From: Marinifilaceae bacterium
GTDB lineage: Bacteria > Bacteroidota > Bacteroidia > Bacteroidales > Marinifilaceae
Assembly (NCBI GenBank): GCA_016936255.1
Contig: JAFGYE010000037.1
Location: 1-64,000, forward strand
Direction: 5' to 3'
DNA: 64,000 nucleotides
A program made the translations under genes and the position numbers. The notes beneath the pieces were generated by a model. That model saw nothing but the letters and a program-made list of their open reading frames with translations, was not told the DNA's origin and did no database searches. Shown here one piece after another: positions 2,857 through 42,525 of this stretch (its first letter is position 1; each line of letters begins with the position of its first letter).

Positions 2857-3501
2857 TTACTCAATTTCAATAATTCTGTTTTTTACTGCATACATTACCA
2901 AGGAAGTTGAATTTTTACATGCCGTTTTGCTTAGTAAATTAGACCGGTGGCGGTCAACCGTTCTTTGGCTGATGAATAATTCCTCTGCAATTTCGGCATT
3001 GCTGTAGCCATCACATATCAGTTTTAAAACTTCCAATTCCCGTTGTGATAATTTTACAGTTTCGGTTCTTAATTTGTGCAGTCTTTTTTGATCCAGAATA
3101 TCAACCAAAAGTTCCTGAGAGAAGTAACTTTTTCCGGCCATTACTGCTTCCAGTGCTGAGATCAGTTCATCTGCATCCGAATTTTTAAGCAGAAAACCTT
3201 TAACCCCGGCATCTAACATTTGATCGTAGTATTCTTCTTCTCCGTGCATAGACAGAACAATTATTTTCATGTCAGGAAATTTCTCGAGAGCTTTTCGTGT
3301 GGCTTCAATTCCATTCATTTCGGGCATGTTAATGTCCATTAAGGCAATATCAATTTGAATATTATCAGCCATTTCGAGAAATTCTTTTCCGTTCGAGGCT
3401 TCCCCTACAATGTTAATATTAGGAACATTATTTAATAGAAACCGCAATCCACTTCTAAACATTTTGTGGTCATCCACAATCATTACCCTGTACTCATTCA
3501 T
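2857..3501 (-). CDS. NarL/FixJ-family response regulator
   Basis: This 214-residue two-domain regulator has an N-terminal receiver (about 4-120) with the acidic pair in MIVDDHKMF, the phosphoacceptor Asp56 in LMDINMP and a conserved Lys in GFLLKNSD. The C-terminal LuxR-type HTH (about 148-205) carries LSQRELEVLKLICDGYSNAE and the recognition segment SQRTVDRHRSNLL. It starts 11 bases after the stop of the HisKA_3 kinase at 3513-6257, so the two form one transcription unit and almost certainly a cognate pair. It may also serve the kinase at 240-2768, whose own regulator is broken. Target genes are not evident. Confidence 0.95.
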   Translation of the reverse strand: MNEYRVMIVDDHKMFRSGLRFLLNNVPNINIVGEASNGKEFLEMADNIQIDIALMDINMPEMNGIEATRKALEKFPDMKIIVLSMHGEEEYYDQMLDAGVKGFLLKNSDADELISALEAVMAGKSYFSQELLVDILDQKRLHKLRTETVKLSQRELEVLKLICDGYSNAEIAEELFISQRTVDRHRSNLLSKTACKNSTSLVMYAVKNRIIEIE

Positions 3502-3512
3502 ACTCTTTAAAA

Positions 3513-6257
3513 TTACAGATTAATCTCTACAACTGCCATCATTCCACCACGTTTTGGGTGGCTGTTTATTTTGTGCGAACCGTTTAACGATTTTATTCTG
3601 CTAAATACATTATACAAGCCCATTCCCGTTGATGTTCCGGCATTAATTTCCTTGGCATCAAAACCAATTCCGTCGTCAATATAGATAAGAGAAACTAAAT
3701 TTTCATCTCTTGACAAGTTTATTTCAATATTTGCAGCTTGTGCGTGTTTAATTGTATTGTTAATTAATTCGCTTACCACCCTAAAAATTACAACTTCAAC
3801 CTGATGGTTGATTCTCTTTTCCATATTTTCAGCAAAAAAACTAATGCTGATGGCCTGCGATAAATTGATTTTATTGGTGAAAGAACGAATGGCTTTTTCC
3901 AAGCCGAAATCGTTCAAAATATGCGGGCTCAGGTTGTTCGAAATTTCTTTGATGCTTACCAAAGCTTCATTTACTGCTTCAACAGAAGCTTTTATAATGT
4001 TCTTTTTCTCAACTTCCGATTCAAATTTATCTATGGATGAGAGATATAAGTTAATACTGGAAAGCAGCGGACCAATTGAATCATGCAAATCGGTAGCGAA
4101 TCTTTTTCGTTCACTTTCTTCTGTGTTGATTACTGCATTTAGAATTTTCCGTTCGGTTTTCTGGCGTTCACTAATATCATTTACCAGAGATAAAATCAGT
4201 TTACTATCTTCCAGTTCAATTAAGCTTAAGTGAATTTCGACAGGAAAGCTGCTGCCGTCTTTTCTTTTTTGCACCGACTCAAAAGAAAGAGAAGGGTAGG
4301 AAGCATTTAATTTTCTCCAATAAGTATGAAGTTCCGAACTGCTGTGTCTGGAATCTATTTCGCTGTAATTTAGGGTCAGAATTTCATCCGCAGAATAACC
4401 CAGCCAATTGCATGCCGCCGAATTGGCATCCAGAATATTGCCGTCAGTATTGTAAATTAGTATTCCATCGGAGGCCTGTTCAATTAAGGAACGCCATCTT
4501 TTTTCCGAGACTCTCAACTTTCGTTCTTCGCTTTTTATTGTTTCTTCGGCTTCTTTTCGTTGGGTGATATTAATTAGTGTACCAACAATGTTTAAAGGTT
4601 TTCCATTTTGGTCATAATCAAGAATTTGTCCTTTTGCTTTGAACCACATCCAGTGTTTTGTGCTTGTAAAAATTCTGAATTCGACAATAAACAACGCGCT
4701 ATAGCCCAATTTGTTTTGCCGGTGTTTTTGTTTGATGATGATTAAATCCTCCGGATGAATAATTTTACAGAGAAGATCTTTTGTGTTTGAAATCGTTACA
4801 GATTTATAGCCTAATTTATCCCATATGATCTTGCTAATATAGGTTTGATCGTTTGCGAAATTATGCTCCCAAACACCATCTGAATTTGCATCCAGCATTC
4901 GAAGAAGCCTGTCCCGGCTGCTTTTAAGTTCCAGATTTGCTTCTTCTAAATTTTCAGTACGTACTTTAACAAGTTCCAAAAGATTGTGCCGGTGATCTTC
5001 CAGCTCCTTATTTTGTTTGATAATTTGTTCGGTTTGTAATTCCAGTTTTTCGTTGGCAAACACAACTTCTTTTGTTCTGTCGGCTACCCTTCGGTCCAAT
5101 TCTTCATTTTCCTGAATCAGTTTTTTCTCATTTTGCTCCCTTTTCAATTTCGAGTACCTTAAGATAATTGCAATGATTAAACCGAATATAATTATTACAA
5201 ATAGTGATGTTTGGTATTGGGGAACAATAGGAGGCGGTTGGTTGCTGATGAAACTACCTTTGGGAAGTTGTTTAGGGAGAATTCCAAAACGTTTCATTTG
5301 TTCGAAATCGAATTTGAAATTGTTGTATCCGGAGTGAATAACCGGAATTTTATTGATCTCTTTCCCATGCAATACCTTAAGAGCAATTTTAGCAGCTAAT
5401 TCTCCTTCTTTATATCCACTTGTGAGCATCCCTCCAACAATACCCTCGTTAAAATAGAATTCCCAACTACTATAGATTGGTAATTTTGTTGCCTTTCGTA
5501 TAATTTCAATATTTTCCTGATAGGAGATAAAATTTCCTTCTTTATCGCGGCTAAAATTCAGAAGGTAAATAATGCTGTTGGGATCAAGGTTTCTCACCTG
5601 ATCAACCAGTTCATCAATGAGTAAATTCTCCAAAAAAATAAGTTCAACATCGGTATGTAAGTCAGGCCAAAAAGATTTGATATTATTTCTGTTCAAGATT
5701 GCTGATTGGGTCTGATTGTCGTTAATCACAACCAATTTTGTTGCTTTAGGATGCAAACGCAAGGCTGCTTCAATCGTTTTTCGGGAGTCAATTTCTTCGG
5801 TAACACCAGAAACTTGTTCAATTCCTTTCACTAACTGATCGGAGAATTGATTAATAGAACAAAAAATTATTGGTGTGTTTTTAAAGAAATTGGTATAGTA
5901 ATCCCTTACAAAATCCAATGCATTGTTGTCAGAAACAATGATGGCATCAAATTTATTTTTTAGGTGTTTGAGACCATAAAGATTAGCGAATTCTTTCAGA
6001 TATTCGGGATTTGAATTCCGCTTTGTGTCCATGTATTCAAACATCAGCTCAACATTGTCTTCACGACCCAAAACAGACTGTATTCCTGCACTTACATTAT
6101 CGGTCCAATTCAATCCCTGATGGTAGGAATGCAGAATAAGTACTCTTTGTTTTCTTGCAGAAGCTTGAAATGCAAAAAGGAAAATGAAGAAAATCAGAAG
6201 GAGAGTCTTCCAATAAATGTTACTTATATTACTCATATTCTGTTTATACTTCTCCAT
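3513..6257 (-). CDS. Sensor histidine kinase with periplasmic substrate-binding-like domain (copy 1)
   Basis: This 914-residue kinase has the same plan as the copy at 240-2768. A signal segment (to about residue 34) precedes a substrate-binding-like sensor domain (about 36-330, VLILHSYHQGLNWTDN) and a transmembrane helix near 345-365. A Glu/Lys/Leu-rich coiled-coil linker (about 375-465) follows, then two PAS modules, HisKA_3 with His725 in LHDSIGPLLSSI, and HATPase_c with DDGIGFD and GMGLYN. The linker is the main difference from the paralogue and accounts for the 72-residue size difference. The next gene is the intact response regulator. The substrate-binding-like input suggests sensing of a small periplasmic solute; the ligand is not predictable. 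A shorter start at Met8 (MSNISN...) is possible. Confidence 0.93.
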   Translation of the reverse strand: MEKYKQNMSNISNIYWKTLLLIFFIFLFAFQASARKQRVLILHSYHQGLNWTDNVSAGIQSVLGREDNVELMFEYMDTKRNSNPEYLKEFANLYGLKHLKNKFDAIIVSDNNALDFVRDYYTNFFKNTPIIFCSINQFSDQLVKGIEQVSGVTEEIDSRKTIEAALRLHPKATKLVVINDNQTQSAILNRNNIKSFWPDLHTDVELIFLENLLIDELVDQVRNLDPNSIIYLLNFSRDKEGNFISYQENIEIIRKATKLPIYSSWEFYFNEGIVGGMLTSGYKEGELAAKIALKVLHGKEINKIPVIHSGYNNFKFDFEQMKRFGILPKQLPKGSFISNQPPPIVPQYQTSLFVIIIFGLIIAIILRYSKLKREQNEKKLIQENEELDRRVADRTKEVVFANEKLELQTEQIIKQNKELEDHRHNLLELVKVRTENLEEANLELKSSRDRLLRMLDANSDGVWEHNFANDQTYISKIIWDKLGYKSVTISNTKDLLCKIIHPEDLIIIKQKHRQNKLGYSALFIVEFRIFTSTKHWMWFKAKGQILDYDQNGKPLNIVGTLINITQRKEAEETIKSEERKLRVSEKRWRSLIEQASDGILIYNTDGNILDANSAACNWLGYSADEILTLNYSEIDSRHSSSELHTYWRKLNASYPSLSFESVQKRKDGSSFPVEIHLSLIELEDSKLILSLVNDISERQKTERKILNAVINTEESERKRFATDLHDSIGPLLSSINLYLSSIDKFESEVEKKNIIKASVEAVNEALVSIKEISNNLSPHILNDFGLEKAIRSFTNKINLSQAISISFFAENMEKRINHQVEVVIFRVVSELINNTIKHAQAANIEINLSRDENLVSLIYIDDGIGFDAKEINAGTSTGMGLYNVFSRIKSLNGSHKINSHPKRGGMMAVVEINL

Positions 6258-33397: not shown

Positions 33398-33430
33398 AAG
33401 CCCGAATCCTTATGGATTCGGGCTTTTTTT
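33398..33430 (+). terminator. Terminator of the TonB receptor/lipoprotein operon
   Basis: A perfect 12-base stem AAGCCCGAATCC/GGATTCGGGCTT with a four-base loop is followed by a T run, 20 bases after the lipoprotein stop. Confidence 0.92.
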
Positions 33431-37993: not shown

Positions 37994-38023
37994 AAAAAAG
38001 CCACCTACAATGGATGGCTTTTT
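37994..38023 (-). terminator. Terminator after the decayed tRNA-Asn (duplicate of the array terminator)
   Basis: The hairpin AAGCCATCC...GGTGGCTT with six T on the minus strand is nearly identical to the hairpin behind the intact tRNA-Asn array at 38450-38478, differing mainly in the loop. It shows that the tRNA 3' half and its terminator were copied together. Confidence 0.8.
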
Positions 38024-38024
38024 G

Positions 38025-38080
38025 CTCCCTCTCTGGGACTTGAACCTATCCCGACTCGTCGGGACTGATTAACAGTCAGG
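38025..38080 (-). pseudogene. Decayed tRNA-Asn (3' half only)
   Basis: On the minus strand this segment retains the tRNA-Asn anticodon arm (CTGACTGTTAATCAG, anticodon GTT), most of the T arm (TAGGTTCAAGTCC) and the acceptor 3' strand (AGAGGGAG). The whole 5' half (acceptor 5' strand and D arm) is missing, and a 15-base palindromic insert (CCCGAC-GA-GTCGGG) separates the anticodon arm from the T arm. It cannot fold as a tRNA. The stop codon of the GIY-YIG gene falls in its anticodon loop. Confidence 0.88.
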
Positions 38081-38383
38081 TGTTGATGATGATGATGATA
38101 TTGTTAGAAGATCACAAAACAGTTGTTGGCCTACCTCTGGATCCAGTAATTGTTCAAGATATTTTCGGCTTTTCATTTTCTTGATTTTTTGTTCAATTTT
38201 TAAAGCAAGAGTTTTGTTGTTGCCAACTTTAAATGCTTTTTTAAGAATCCATGGTCTGTGTTTAGAGGTATAACTTGTTCGTATAGGGTTGTTATGCATG
38301 AAAATCCGCTTGGAAACATCTTCGGTACATCCTAGATAGTATTTGTCTGATGAAGGAGAGTATAAAATATATATGAAATACAT
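38069..38383 (-). CDS. GIY-YIG nuclease-family protein ending inside a tRNA remnant
   Basis: This 104-residue single-domain protein contains the motif pair YFIYILYS (residues 2-9) and KYYLG (14-18), the catalytic Arg26 in DVSKRIFMHN and the catalytic Glu64 in ALKIEQKI. It matches the small stand-alone (UPF0213/YhbQ-like) group, whose targets are largely unknown. Its last residues come from an ATC/TCA microsatellite (SSSSS), and the codons ACA CCT GAC TGT TAA are the anticodon arm of a decayed tRNA-Asn. The gene thus sits between an intact tRNA-Asn array and a duplicate of the tRNA 3' half, as expected of a small cassette inserted at a tRNA gene. Whether it is mobile or active is unproved. Confidence 0.88.
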   Translation of the reverse strand: MYFIYILYSPSSDKYYLGCTEDVSKRIFMHNNPIRTSYTSKHRPWILKKAFKVGNNKTLALKIEQKIKKMKSRKYLEQLLDPEVGQQLFCDLLTISSSSSTPDC

Positions 38384-38449
38384 ATAACTAAATTAGGGAA
38401 ATTTTTGGATCAAGTCGAAAAGTTGTGGGAAAGAAAAGTTAAGGATACG

Positions 38450-38478
38450 AAAAAAGCCACCCAAATGGATGGCTTTTT
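38450..38478 (-). terminator. Terminator of the tRNA-Asn array
   Basis: On the minus strand the hairpin AAAAGCCATCC/GGGTGGCTTTT with a short ATTT loop and a T run starts directly after the last tRNA-Asn. Confidence 0.85.
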
Positions 38479-38479
38479 G

Positions 38480-38553
38480 CTCCCTCTCTAGGACTTGAAC
38501 CTAGGACCCTCTGATTAACAGTCAGATGCTCTAACCAACTGAGCTAAGAAGGA
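38480..38553 (-). tRNA. tRNA-Asn (GTT), copy 1 (last in the array)
   Basis: This 74-base cloverleaf on the minus strand has acceptor stem TCCTTCT/AGAGGGA, D arm GCTC...GAGC, anticodon stem-loop TCTGA-CTGTTAA-TCAGA with anticodon GTT, T arm CTAGG-TTCAAGT-CCTAG and discriminator G. CCA is not encoded. It is identical to the other two copies. Confidence 0.97.
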
Positions 38554-38601
38554 ATACTCTGCTAAACTTATTTTAAAAGCATTTAGCCTGCTTTTTTTTT
38601 G

Positions 38602-38675
38602 CTCCCTCTCTAGGACTTGAACCTAGGACCCTCTGATTAACAGTCAGATGCTCTAACCAACTGAGCTAAGAAGGA
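38602..38675 (-). tRNA. tRNA-Asn (GTT), copy 2 (middle)
   Basis: Identical in sequence and structure to the copies on either side. The 48-base spacer to copy 1 and the 47-base spacer to copy 3 are also nearly the same, containing AAAGCA-GGCTAAA-TGCTTT, a small hairpin that may guide processing. Confidence 0.97.
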
Positions 38676-38722
38676 ATACTTTGCTAAAATTGTTTTGAAA
38701 GCATTTAGCCTGCTTTTTTTTG

Positions 38723-38796
38723 CTCCCTCTCTAGGACTTGAACCTAGGACCCTCTGATTAACAGTCAGATGCTCTAACCAACTGAGCTAAGAAGGA
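38723..38796 (-). tRNA. tRNA-Asn (GTT), copy 3 (first in the array)
   Basis: Identical tRNA-Asn, the most promoter-proximal copy on the minus strand. The three copies form a tandem array with a period of about 121-122 bases and are transcribed from the promoter at 38862-38893. Confidence 0.97.
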
Positions 38797-40446: not shown

Positions 40447-41106
40447 ATGAGGTTTAAATCTACTATATTTTTCCTGTTGGCAATTGGTATTTGTTCCGCT
40501 GGGAAAGCTCAATACTACAAAGAAAAGGAATTGTTAGTCGGGGCTTCAGTAGGCTATCAGTATCCTTTGGGTGATTTTGGAGATCAAGCAAAAGGAGGAC
40601 CAGCATTTAGGGTAACCGGTCAGATGATGCTGAATAAAAAAATAGGCGTGGGTGCCGAGATTGCTTACAGTATATTAGGACAGGATAATTTTTGGAATGG
40701 TAATCATTTTGGAAATTACGATGTGAATTACAATATTGCATCGGCCCAGTTTAAAGGGTCTTATTTTTTTGATAGTTGGGATCGGGATTTTCGACCGTAC
40801 ACATCGCTTGCTTTTGGTTATTTCCATTATCAAAACAGCATTAGCTTTGTTTCGACATCGGTTGGGAGCTTAAATCAGAAGAGAACAATTAAAGAAAATA
40901 AAGTTGGCTTAACACCAATTATTGGCTTTTTGTATCATCTTTCCGAGGATTGGAGTTTTGATGTAAATTTGAGATACACTTATATTCCGGATTTCCCGGA
41001 AACTGTAACTGCAAAAGATGAAAATGGAGATCCGTATCAATATTTTCTTGGATTTGATAAGGTTTCTCTTCCCGAATTATCTATCGGATTGTTTTACCAT
41101 TTTTAA
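40447..41106 (+). CDS. Small outer-membrane beta-barrel protein
   Basis: This 219-residue protein has a signal peptide ending GKAQ and eight or so amphipathic strands (LLVGASVGYQYPLGDFG, IGVGAEIAYSIL, WSFDVNLRYTYI). It ends in the aromatic LSIGLFYHF, the C-terminal signal for Bam-mediated insertion. It resembles the OmpW/opacity-like porin superfamily, but no function can be assigned. Its TAA stop overlaps that of the convergent kinase gene by four bases (TTAA). Confidence 0.88.
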   Translation: MRFKSTIFFLLAIGICSAGKAQYYKEKELLVGASVGYQYPLGDFGDQAKGGPAFRVTGQMMLNKKIGVGAEIAYSILGQDNFWNGNHFGNYDVNYNIASAQFKGSYFFDSWDRDFRPYTSLAFGYFHYQNSISFVSTSVGSLNQKRTIKENKVGLTPIIGFLYHLSEDWSFDVNLRYTYIPDFPETVTAKDENGDPYQYFLGFDKVSLPELSIGLFYHF

Positions 41107-41717
41107 AACAATCCGTGAATTTGAGCCTCTACCTTATCCATAATGCTGTTTAAATCTTCCGGATTATCCAGGAAATCAATATTGTCAGCATCAACAATTA
41201 ATAGCTTGCCGCGATTGTAATTCTGAATCCATGTTTCGTATCTGGCATTCAGGTTTTTTAAGTAATCCAGACGGATGGTTTCTTCGTAATTGCGGCCTCT
41301 TTTCTGAATTTGATTGACCAATGTAGGAACAGACGATCGCAAATAGATTAGCAAATCAGGAGCTTGAACCATAGATCCCATTAATTCGAACAGGTTGTTG
41401 TAATTTTTAAAATCGCGTTGCGACATCAAACCCATATCAAATAAATTCGGAGCAAAAATCATGGCATCTTCATAAATGGTACGATCCTGAATTACATTTT
41501 TTCCCGCCTTACGGATTTCCATAATTTGGTTGAACCGACTTTTTAGAAAGTAAATTTGAAGATTGAACGACCATCGTTTCATGTCATCGTAAAAATCATT
41601 TAAATAGGGGTTCTCGTCAACGTCCTCGTAATGAGCCTCCCATCCATATTGTTTTGCAAGCAGTTCGGTAAGGGTAGTTTTACCAGAGCCAATGTTTCCA
41701 GCTATTGCGATATGCAT
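41103..41717 (-). CDS. Deoxynucleoside kinase (tandem copy A)
   Basis: This 204-residue dNK-family enzyme phosphorylates a deoxynucleoside for salvage. It has a P-loop GNIGSGKTT (residues 7-15), the region EDVDENPYLNDFYDDMKRWS, the DRTIYEDA motif and the lid region RGRNYEETIRLDYL. It is a close paralogue of the next gene, with the same length after start correction and similar motifs. Paired dNKs in other bacteria (dAK/dGK) form heterodimers with different base preference; the same may hold here. It is in the minus-strand group GH3, hypothetical, dNK, dNK. Confidence 0.95.
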   Translation of the reverse strand: MHIAIAGNIGSGKTTLTELLAKQYGWEAHYEDVDENPYLNDFYDDMKRWSFNLQIYFLKSRFNQIMEIRKAGKNVIQDRTIYEDAMIFAPNLFDMGLMSQRDFKNYNNLFELMGSMVQAPDLLIYLRSSVPTLVNQIQKRGRNYEETIRLDYLKNLNARYETWIQNYNRGKLLIVDADNIDFLDNPEDLNSIMDKVEAQIHGLF

Positions 41718-41812
41718 AATTTGAAAGAATTATCAGTTTTGAATTATAAATTCGGAATTGGATTTACAAGCCAGACAGTCTTAACTCGTAATTATCAATT
41801 CACAACTCCTTT
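41718..41812. repeat. Degenerate AT-rich filler between the two kinase genes
   Basis: Ninety-five bases with drifting repeats of AATTAT, GAATT and AATTC words and no gene. A similar drift (TTAATTATTAATTTTTAAC and relatives) occurs before the acylphosphatase gene. It may be a decayed repeat. Confidence 0.4.
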
Positions 41813-42427
41813 TTAAAAGAGTCCGTTTAGCTGAGCATCAATTTTGTTGATTACTTCACTTAAGTCTTTAGGGCTTTTCAGAAAATTAATGTTATCCACA
41901 TCAATAATCAGTAGTTTGCCATTTGCATACCCCGATATCCATGCCTCATAGCGCTCATTCAAACGTTTCAGATAGTCTAAGCGAATGGTTTCCTCGTAAT
42001 CGCGGCCACGTTCCTGAATATGACTTACCAGCGTTGGAATACTTGCGCGTAAGTAAATAAGCAGGTCTGGCGGTTGAATTAATGAACTCATGATGTTAAA
42101 AAGAGACAGATAGTTGTCAAAATCTCTTCTGGGCATTAAACTCATCGATTCCAGATTAGGAGCAAAAATATAGGCATCCTCGTAGATGGTTCTGTCCTGA
42201 ATGATGTCTTTGCCGGATTTGCGTAAGGACAAAACCTGGTTGAAACGACTATTTAAAAAATGAATCTGAAGAGCGAATGACCATCGTTTCATATCTTCGT
42301 AAAAATCATTTAAATATGGATTTTCATCAACATCTTCGAAATGAGCTTCCCATCCGTAGTGTTTAGCTAATAATCCGGCTAGTGTAGTTTTACCAGCTCC
42401 AATATTTCCGGCAACAGCAATGTGCAT
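41813..42427 (-). CDS. Deoxynucleoside kinase (tandem copy B)
   Basis: This 204-residue paralogue of the preceding kinase starts at MHIAVAGNIGAGKTTLAG (Met at 42427; ten extra codons upstream are dropped). It keeps the P-loop GNIGAGKTT, EDVDENPYLNDFYEDMKRWS, DRTIYEDA and RGRDYEETIRLDYL. The two proteins differ mainly in the residues around the substrate pocket and surface, so their base specificities may differ. The two copies clearly arose by tandem duplication. Confidence 0.95.
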   Translation of the reverse strand: MHIAVAGNIGAGKTTLAGLLAKHYGWEAHFEDVDENPYLNDFYEDMKRWSFALQIHFLNSRFNQVLSLRKSGKDIIQDRTIYEDAYIFAPNLESMSLMPRRDFDNYLSLFNIMSSLIQPPDLLIYLRASIPTLVSHIQERGRDYEETIRLDYLKRLNERYEAWISGYANGKLLIIDVDNINFLKSPKDLSEVINKIDAQLNGLF

Positions 42428-42525
42428 ATTTATGTTTACTTTGTGTGAAAAAGGCAACTAAAATTAAGAATATTTTTCAGGAATTCAATTGGAAAAAACA
42501 CCAACAAATTGCAGGTTATTTTTAA

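Follow-up and report, generated by a model that had tools for sequence, protein, structure and literature searches.

Mobile elements of the integrase type that enter tRNA genes rebuild the tRNA with an element-borne 3′ part and leave a partial copy at their far end. In fungal mitochondria, mobile ORFs (mORFs) have been described in atp6, atp9, cox2 and nad3 of Glomus and in atp6 of Allomyces, and the passages concerned portray a free-standing endonuclease ORF (of the GIY-YIG type in atp9) that carries the 3′ part of its target gene, the hybrid gene being transcribed and the native 3′ part displaced downstream (PMC3630166). SegB of the T-even phages is presented, in the corresponding passages, as a free-standing GIY-YIG homing endonuclease whose gene adjoins tRNA genes; it cuts within tRNA genes and is reported as often tRNA-associated in phages (PMC2988022, PMC13096335), and it is reported to drive tandem amplification of the tRNA-segB segment (PMC13096335).

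Here we analyze a locus in a 64,000-nt stretch of DNA from a Marinifilaceae bacterium (hereafter the window), in which a small GIY-YIG gene has an intact tRNA-Asn gene on one side and a partial copy of that tRNA on the other. From comparison of sequences, this locus looks like one case of a phylum-wide family of apparent miniature mobile elements, and we consider it probable that the unit is a mobile cassette that behaves like a homing endonuclease and has tRNA genes as its special target. It resembles integrase-type tRNA elements in its seemingly element-borne tRNA 3′ part and its far-end partial copy, and differs from them in that a Pfam scan of seven neighbouring window proteins found no integrase, in forming arrays with a repeat period of 0.3-0.4 kb, in having a mirror class and in bearing a palindrome. 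As in mORFs, a nuclease ORF is joined to what appears to be a carried 3′ part while the native part is displaced; mORFs, as far as those passages go, occupy protein genes of mitochondria, whereas the cassettes described here occupy tRNA genes of bacterial chromosomes, include a mirror class that would carry 5′ parts and have a palindrome in the displaced copy (PMC3630166). Like SegB, with which the comparison is by description only, they consist of a GIY-YIG gene adjoining a tRNA and can form tandem arrays, whereas SegB belongs to phage tRNA clusters and the passages on it mention neither an element-borne tRNA copy nor a palindrome (PMC2988022, PMC13096335). Short dispersed palindromes tied to the gene of a small DNA-processing enzyme are a feature shared with the REP/RAYT pair, and a word search of the REP/RAYT paper returned neither TCCCGA nor GIY-YIG (PMC3733652). 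Unlike REP sequences, the palindrome here sits inside tRNA copies, and it was found near 1 of 20 RAYT genes. Among the matches listed in a search of open-access titles and abstract openings, with subscription papers and preprints outside its scope, none described these cassettes.

Results

The window locus holds, on one strand and in this order, three intact tRNA-Asn genes, a terminator, a GIY-YIG ORF, a partial tRNA-Asn copy and a second terminator (Table 1). A preliminary description of this DNA had placed the GIY-YIG gene between an intact tRNA-Asn and a partial copy, and ARAGORN, Pfam and a repeat search bear this out at the same place; it had overlooked the two upstream intact tRNA-Asn genes, the palindrome and the phylum-wide recurrence of the arrangement. 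The ORF is the only one between the tRNA and its copy, and its GIY-YIG domain (PF01541) scores 45.1 bits against a cut-off of 22.6, which places the protein in the superfamily. The partial copy and its terminator span 37994-38082, with the terminator near-identical to the proximal one, and their similarity to the tRNA and its flank scores 103, against 20-24 for the best of 50 shuffles and 23 for the best of 100. Also in agreement with the preliminary description, the partial copy has CTGTTAA as its anticodon loop, with the TAA stop of the ORF (38069-38071) inside it, and the TCA microsatellite is present as a (TGA)n run, which is shorter in the G005 homologue (L034) and thus probably reflects ordinary slippage. 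The idea that the second tRNA copy is merely decayed had to be given up: its variable loop has been specifically swapped for a perfect palindrome. The pattern CCCGAN{3,12}TCGGG, expected 0.09 times in the window, occurs twice, once here and once at 33401, the latter being a longer CCCGA...TCGGG inverted repeat (33401-33422).

Table 1. Positions of the features of the tRNA-Asn/GIY-YIG locus in the window
Feature	Position	Strand	Basis
Intact tRNA-Asn(GTT), third of array	38722..38796	-	ARAGORN
Intact tRNA-Asn(GTT), second of array	38601..38675	-	ARAGORN
Intact tRNA-Asn(GTT) adjoining the cassette	38479..38553	-	ARAGORN
Proximal terminator-like hairpin (AAAAAGCCACCCA / TGGATGGCTTTTT)	38450..38478	-	inverted repeat I4
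GIY-YIG nuclease ORF, 104 aa	38069..38383	-	ORF call, Pfam, dN/dS, AlphaFold
(TGA)n microsatellite, 3′ end of the ORF	38084..38098	.	read from sequence
tRNA-Asn remnant, anticodon-arm part (CACCTGACTGTTAATCAG)	38065..38082	-	sequence, tRNA placement
Palindrome TCCCGA-CGAG-TCGGGA (TCCCGACGAGTCGGGA) in place of tRNA positions 44-50 (variable loop)	38049..38064	.	
tRNA-Asn remnant, T-arm and acceptor 3′ part	38024..38048	-	repeat D2
Distal terminator, continuous with native flank	37994..38023	-	identity to empty-site relative G002 (L126)

A reading of the locus as a defence system was rejected, PADLOC having given weak matches for only one of three proteins. Elsewhere in the window, two adjacent deoxynucleoside kinase paralogues lie on the minus strand at 41103-42457. 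A search of the organism's own genome returned the window gene and two other GIY-YIG matches, both free of tRNA genes in 1.5 kb on either side; one of them (L001, a 600-aa frame) presumably represents UvrC. The lack of other copies of the gene in its genome, which the preliminary description had named as part of what would favour an old, fixed duplication, thus holds here, but it is outweighed by the copies present in many other genomes.

The locus was next traced in relatives through the neighbouring aminotransferase gene, which we take to be KBL-like. Among 30 loci fetched, 11 had the tRNA-Asn array, and the ORF was present in six of them (G000, G001, G004, G005, G011 and G016) and absent from five (G002, G003, G007, G013 and G015), so that the empty site envisaged in the preliminary description does exist. 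From the T-arm on, the window sequence 3′ of the palindrome is identical to empty G002 (L126) at 178 of 198 positions, to empty G007 at 173/199 and to empty G003 at 163/195, while the proximal copy, beside the intact tRNA, matches only 54 native bases of these three (L126-L128). Host sequence resumes directly beyond the window palindrome. Against the distant empty sites the distal copy does not win, with 96/127 identities for the distal and 53/60 for the proximal copy in G013, and 50/58 and 65/76, respectively, in G015. The empty sites could also be losses through recombination between repeats, which counts against the mobile-cassette reading.

Two of these relatives carry altered tRNA sequences of their own. 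In G013 (L133), palindrome-like tRNA scraps lie between tRNA-Asn genes at a site where the ORF is absent, likely the relic of a lost cassette. In G005 (L129), the palindrome is present in the variable loop of two tRNA-Asn genes (3305-3388 and 3434-3517), in one of them with a base changed. Both are called as tRNAs of 84 nt, and they may be working tRNA genes that the remnant has converted.

The direction of insertion could be addressed at a tRNA-Ala locus in a densely sampled genus (g50, which we take to be Flavobacterium), where a search of 120 genomes located the neighbour gene in 113 and the 30 closest of these loci were read. Ten of the 30 were filled (counting L108, in which the ORF is split in two) and 20 were empty, filled and empty loci being interspersed. 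Presence and absence at a fixed site, a trait of homing endonucleases, is therefore seen at both the Asn and the Ala locus. At six of nine scorable filled loci, the terminator by the intact tRNA is of the cassette type and the terminator past the remnant is of the native (empty-site) type; the cassette thus appears to bring a tRNA 3′ part with its terminator and to displace the native part. This is the trait of mORFs, with the carried 3′ part by the ORF and the native part beyond, tested at the Ala locus only. Both terminators are of the cassette type in L101 and L114, the two are alike in L095, and L108 was not scorable; the first three (3/9) would be equally explained by local duplication.

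The preliminary description had proposed that insertion duplicated the tRNA 3′ half. The partial copy is real, but the gene-side 3′ part is better explained as cassette-borne and the displaced part as native, as judged at the one testable locus. A plain long target-site duplication as the general rule, suggested by L095, was unsupported after the terminator comparison, although it is still compatible with L095, L101 and L114. For L095, whose anticodon stem differs from that of its nearest empty relatives, we also considered a recoded, resistant tRNA, and discarded the idea because each of the two stem types is found at filled as well as at empty loci.

To place the locus in the phylum, relatives were fetched by protein similarity alone. 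A profile built from 28 sequences matches, at E 1e-12, in 223 of the 392 Bacteroidota genomes sampled. Association with tRNA genes was scored within Bacteroidota at 88 loci from 87 of these 223 genomes, taken from the top of the similarity ranking and not at random (G385 gave two loci, L089 and L233; G000 was left out; L070 was replaced by L234, at the same place), and the 84 loci with at least 300 bp of upstream sequence were informative. At 72 of the 84 loci an intact upstream tRNA is present on the same strand, either no more than 600 bp away or reached across an array of GIY-YIG genes, against none of 84 on the opposite strand (binomial p 5e-152 for the upstream association, assuming 60 tRNAs per 4 Mb). 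The upstream isotypes at the 72 loci are Gly (14), Asp (13), Asn (13), Ala (9), Val (8), Met (7), Phe (2) and Pro (2), with one locus each for Thr, Ser, Arg and Lys. Past the ORF, a tRNA copy scores above the maximum of 200 shuffles at 67/72 loci.

Eight of the other 12 informative loci have a same-strand tRNA downstream, within 600 bp. In L232 the tRNA is 610 bp downstream, beyond further GIY-YIG units, in L221 it lies about 1.5 kb upstream of a GIY-YIG array, and L083 and L188 show, by eye, only a palindrome-marked tRNA remnant. A mirror class has the order palindrome-marked tRNA 5′ part, ORF, intact tRNA; among the 10 such loci tested, the upstream copy is above the shuffle maximum in eight (L175, L202, L223, L226, L229, L233, L062 and L051) and not above shuffles in L177 and L227. 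Across loci the ORF measures 79-118 aa, and a stop codon interrupts the match in 4/88 focal ORFs. Tandem arrays reach seven near-identical units of 378-381 bp in L221 (G284; first spacing 351), five identical ORFs at 315 bp in L234 (G352), and three units each in L232 (323 bp) and L020 (354 bp). One query found no match in phages or plasmids, and two queries found none in viral contigs; this lack of a vehicle counts against the mobile-cassette reading.

The nucleases were then compared in a tree of 172 proteins (81 columns, SH-aLRT support), in which many forks are weak. Mapped on this tree (150 rows, 13 labels), tRNA isotype requires 37 changes against a shuffled mean of 103, as for lineage-specific targets; one label, Phe(aaa) at L022, is a palindrome-marked copy misread by ARAGORN. 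On 124 rows, isotype takes 31 changes and host family 43, so that the nuclease lineages follow the isotype of the tRNA more closely than the family of the host. An Asn clade of 25 rows (22 Asn, 3 unassigned; SH-aLRT 99) has, by record titles, hosts in Bacteroidales, Chitinophagaceae, Flavobacteriaceae, Cyclobacteriaceae and Flammeovirgaceae, and a Met clade of 10 rows (support 98) spans four host families. A Gly clade of 16 rows (support 99) is confined to one host family, which counts against the mobile-cassette reading.

These results bear on the alternative that the tRNAs were duplicated in tandem long ago, that the gene between the copies is a mere passenger and that nothing at these loci is mobile now. 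The window-type gene is common to several genera of one family, tRNA arrays are common at these loci, and the like terminators of L095, L101 and L114 would suit such a history. It is nevertheless improbable, given an association that spans 13 isotype labels, target-specific gene clades and many host families, the interspersed filled and empty loci, and the cassette-type and native terminators told apart at 6/9 loci. The minimal tRNA-targeting cassette put forward in the preliminary description, in contrast, gains support from the empty sites, from the tRNA link of most sampled genes and from related nucleases at the same isotype, and appears to hold on these comparisons.

The ORFs are under purifying selection, with dN/dS of 0.04-0.28 in pairs with usable dS (for several Ala pairs dS was saturated, so that no ratio was obtained) and 0.09-0.28 for the window ORF against the four homologues tested (G005, G011, G016 and OB13). 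In the 28 sequences, G18, R26, H30, E64 and K68 are invariant, and Y5 and Y16 are kept in at least 90%; Tyr, Arg and Glu are the conserved catalytic positions of GIY-YIG nucleases. The AlphaFold model of the window protein has a mean pLDDT of 90.9, and its nearest Foldseek matches among solved structures, none of which reached E 0.001, are UPF0213, HIGLE and the branched-DNA nuclease Slx1, with I-TevI lower. The model and the lengths of the ORFs leave room for the nuclease fold and C-terminal helices only, with no DNA-binding domain beyond them. Homing endonucleases have a separate DNA-recognition domain, as in I-TevI, and because it is absent here we call the protein homing-endonuclease-like and not a member of that group.

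Selection and an Slx1-like fold would equally befit a domesticated host gene, whose enzyme resolves DNA structures at tRNA genes and whose tRNA-like palindromic tail serves as an mRNA processing or termination signal; in 39/74 loci the tRNA-copy alignment indeed starts ahead of the ORF stop. We give this explanation little credence, as the gene is patchy (223/392 genomes at E 1e-12) and missing in close relatives, and as the palindromic copy lies upstream of the ORF in the mirror class.

The palindrome itself recurs with the ORF. It is found near the ORF stop in 66 of 85 cases, a count that includes terminator-like hairpins (at least L072, L090, L187 and L193) and misses mirror-class and imperfect palindromes, against 4/85 and 10/83 in control windows, the 10/83 probably consisting in part of real ORF-less copies. 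Its position relative to the tRNA could be assigned for 129 of 193 distinct genes (64 unplaced; some placements, e.g. L068, L104, L111 and L193, look like terminators), and in most placed cases a short CCG...CGG palindrome has taken the place of one tRNA arm or loop. In tRNA-Ala it typically stands in place of the whole anticodon arm (28-44), and in Arg, Lys and most Val copies in the same region; in tRNA-Asn it is found at 26-35, at 44-50 or in the T-loop, in Asp mostly at 51-58, in several Gly copies at 49-56 or at about 26-33, in Phe and most Leu at T-loop bases, and in several mirror-class loci at the D-arm or neighbouring sequence. Arm variants are TCCCGA, TCCCGC, TCCGCC, TCCGTT and CTCCGA, and both strands change together, which is a description and not a covariation test because complementarity was part of the search. 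On the GIY-YIG tree, arm type (110 genes kept) takes 22 changes, against a mean of 33 and a lowest value of 29 when shuffled within host families; it thus tracks the tree beyond host family, as expected if the palindrome travels with the ORF.

Palindromes of this type are also dispersed. TCCCGAN{3,12}TCGGGA occurs 30 times in the window's genome, against once for the reversed control. In this genome the palindrome also forms the core of a family of repeats scattered over intergenic regions (L157, L158, L161, L164, L167-L171 and L174), and L164 holds two palindromes 114 bp apart. Rfam, run on 17 of 20 fetched dispersed-palindrome loci, gave one sub-threshold match only. RAYT transposases are the usual agents of such repeats, and RAYT (Y1_Tnp) genes were present in 16/16 genomes checked. 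Two RAYT loci, L244 and L246, have regularly spaced palindromes of other sequence (CCCGTGGTTTCAACCACGGG; TCCGTCCTAAAGGACGGA).

One could therefore ask whether RAYT transposases have spread the palindromes as ordinary REPs, some of which landed by chance in non-essential tRNA remnants. Genome-wide dispersal, the ubiquity of Y1_Tnp genes among the genomes checked and two RAYT loci, L252 with the strict palindrome and L247 with a looser CCCGA...TCGGG, are in line with this. It is very unlikely all the same: the strict palindrome occurs at only one of the 20 RAYT loci read (of 72 matches), genomes G050, G128 and G216 have RAYT genes and are palindrome-free, the position of the palindrome recurs per tRNA lineage, and arm type follows the GIY-YIG tree.

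A different relation between gene and palindrome is conceivable, in which the two form a two-part system like RAYT and REP: an Slx1-like nuclease would act on hairpin DNA with the palindrome as its cis site, and ORF-less marked tRNA copies and some dispersed palindromes would be non-autonomous products made in trans. Among distinct palindrome-marked tRNA copies, 39/161 (41/178 before repeat removal) have no GIY-YIG match within 130 nt, although all were counted in loci fetched for the GIY-YIG gene or its empty site and some of the 39 may adjoin decayed ORFs (e.g. L060). Intact marked ORF-less copies lie upstream of tRNA-Ala at 8/10 filled and 3/20 empty loci (Fisher p 0.001, relatedness uncorrected). 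Across 392 genomes, palindrome and GIY-YIG counts correlate (rho 0.57; control pattern -0.01), also in a family-stratified permutation (p 0.0005; control 0.26), and the median palindrome number is 13 in genomes with GIY-YIG and 3 in those without. The strict palindrome is, moreover, missing from 19/20 RAYT loci, some of which bear other repeats. Against this, linkage and shared ancestry could yield the correlation, which within single families is non-significant in 8/10 and significant only in f43 and f49 (the median is higher with GIY-YIG in 9/10); G128 has 11 GIY-YIG matches and zero TCCCGA palindromes; and, of the 22 dispersed palindromes examined in the genome of the window, 11 belong to the separate repeat family. 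We therefore regard the two-part system as a tentative proposal.

Discussion

The mobile-cassette reading suggests the following course of events. The nuclease would nick or cut its tRNA gene in one arm, and repair off a cassette-bearing template would copy in the tRNA 3′ part, the terminator, the ORF, a tRNA piece and the palindrome. The tRNA would be rebuilt with the cassette-borne 3′ part, or with a 5′ part at mirror-class loci, and the part native to the host would be pushed away; on this reading the cassette brings along part of its tRNA much as the mobile ORFs of fungal mitochondria bring along the ends of genes. The palindrome would destroy the target in the spare copy, and may in this way disarm it, so that only the working copy would keep the target. 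Tandem arrays would arise from repeated entry or unequal recombination. A point against the mobile-cassette reading is that the intact tRNA should remain a target of the nuclease.

A further possibility, which we hold only tentatively, is that these units are a new kind of element, in which a one-domain GIY-YIG nuclease with the palindrome as cis site invades tRNA genes and replaces an arm of the spare copy by its own hairpin, ORF-less units spread in trans, and part of the dispersed Bacteroidota palindromes has been seeded in this way. If true, it would be the GIY-YIG counterpart of RAYT/REP, living on tRNA genes.

Small GIY-YIG genes, presumably annotated in most cases as no more than 'GIY-YIG nuclease family protein', seem to constitute a miniature mobile element that is very common in a major phylum, judging from the share of genomes with a match and from the tRNA genes at which most of the examined copies lie. 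The cassettes could explain why some tRNA genes are incomplete or unusual and how some members of a dispersed palindrome family arose, and the predictions of their targets (which tRNA, which arm) are directly testable. Such a cassette would be a selfish nuclease of bacterial chromosomes that mends the damage it does with a fragment of an essential non-coding gene that it brings along.
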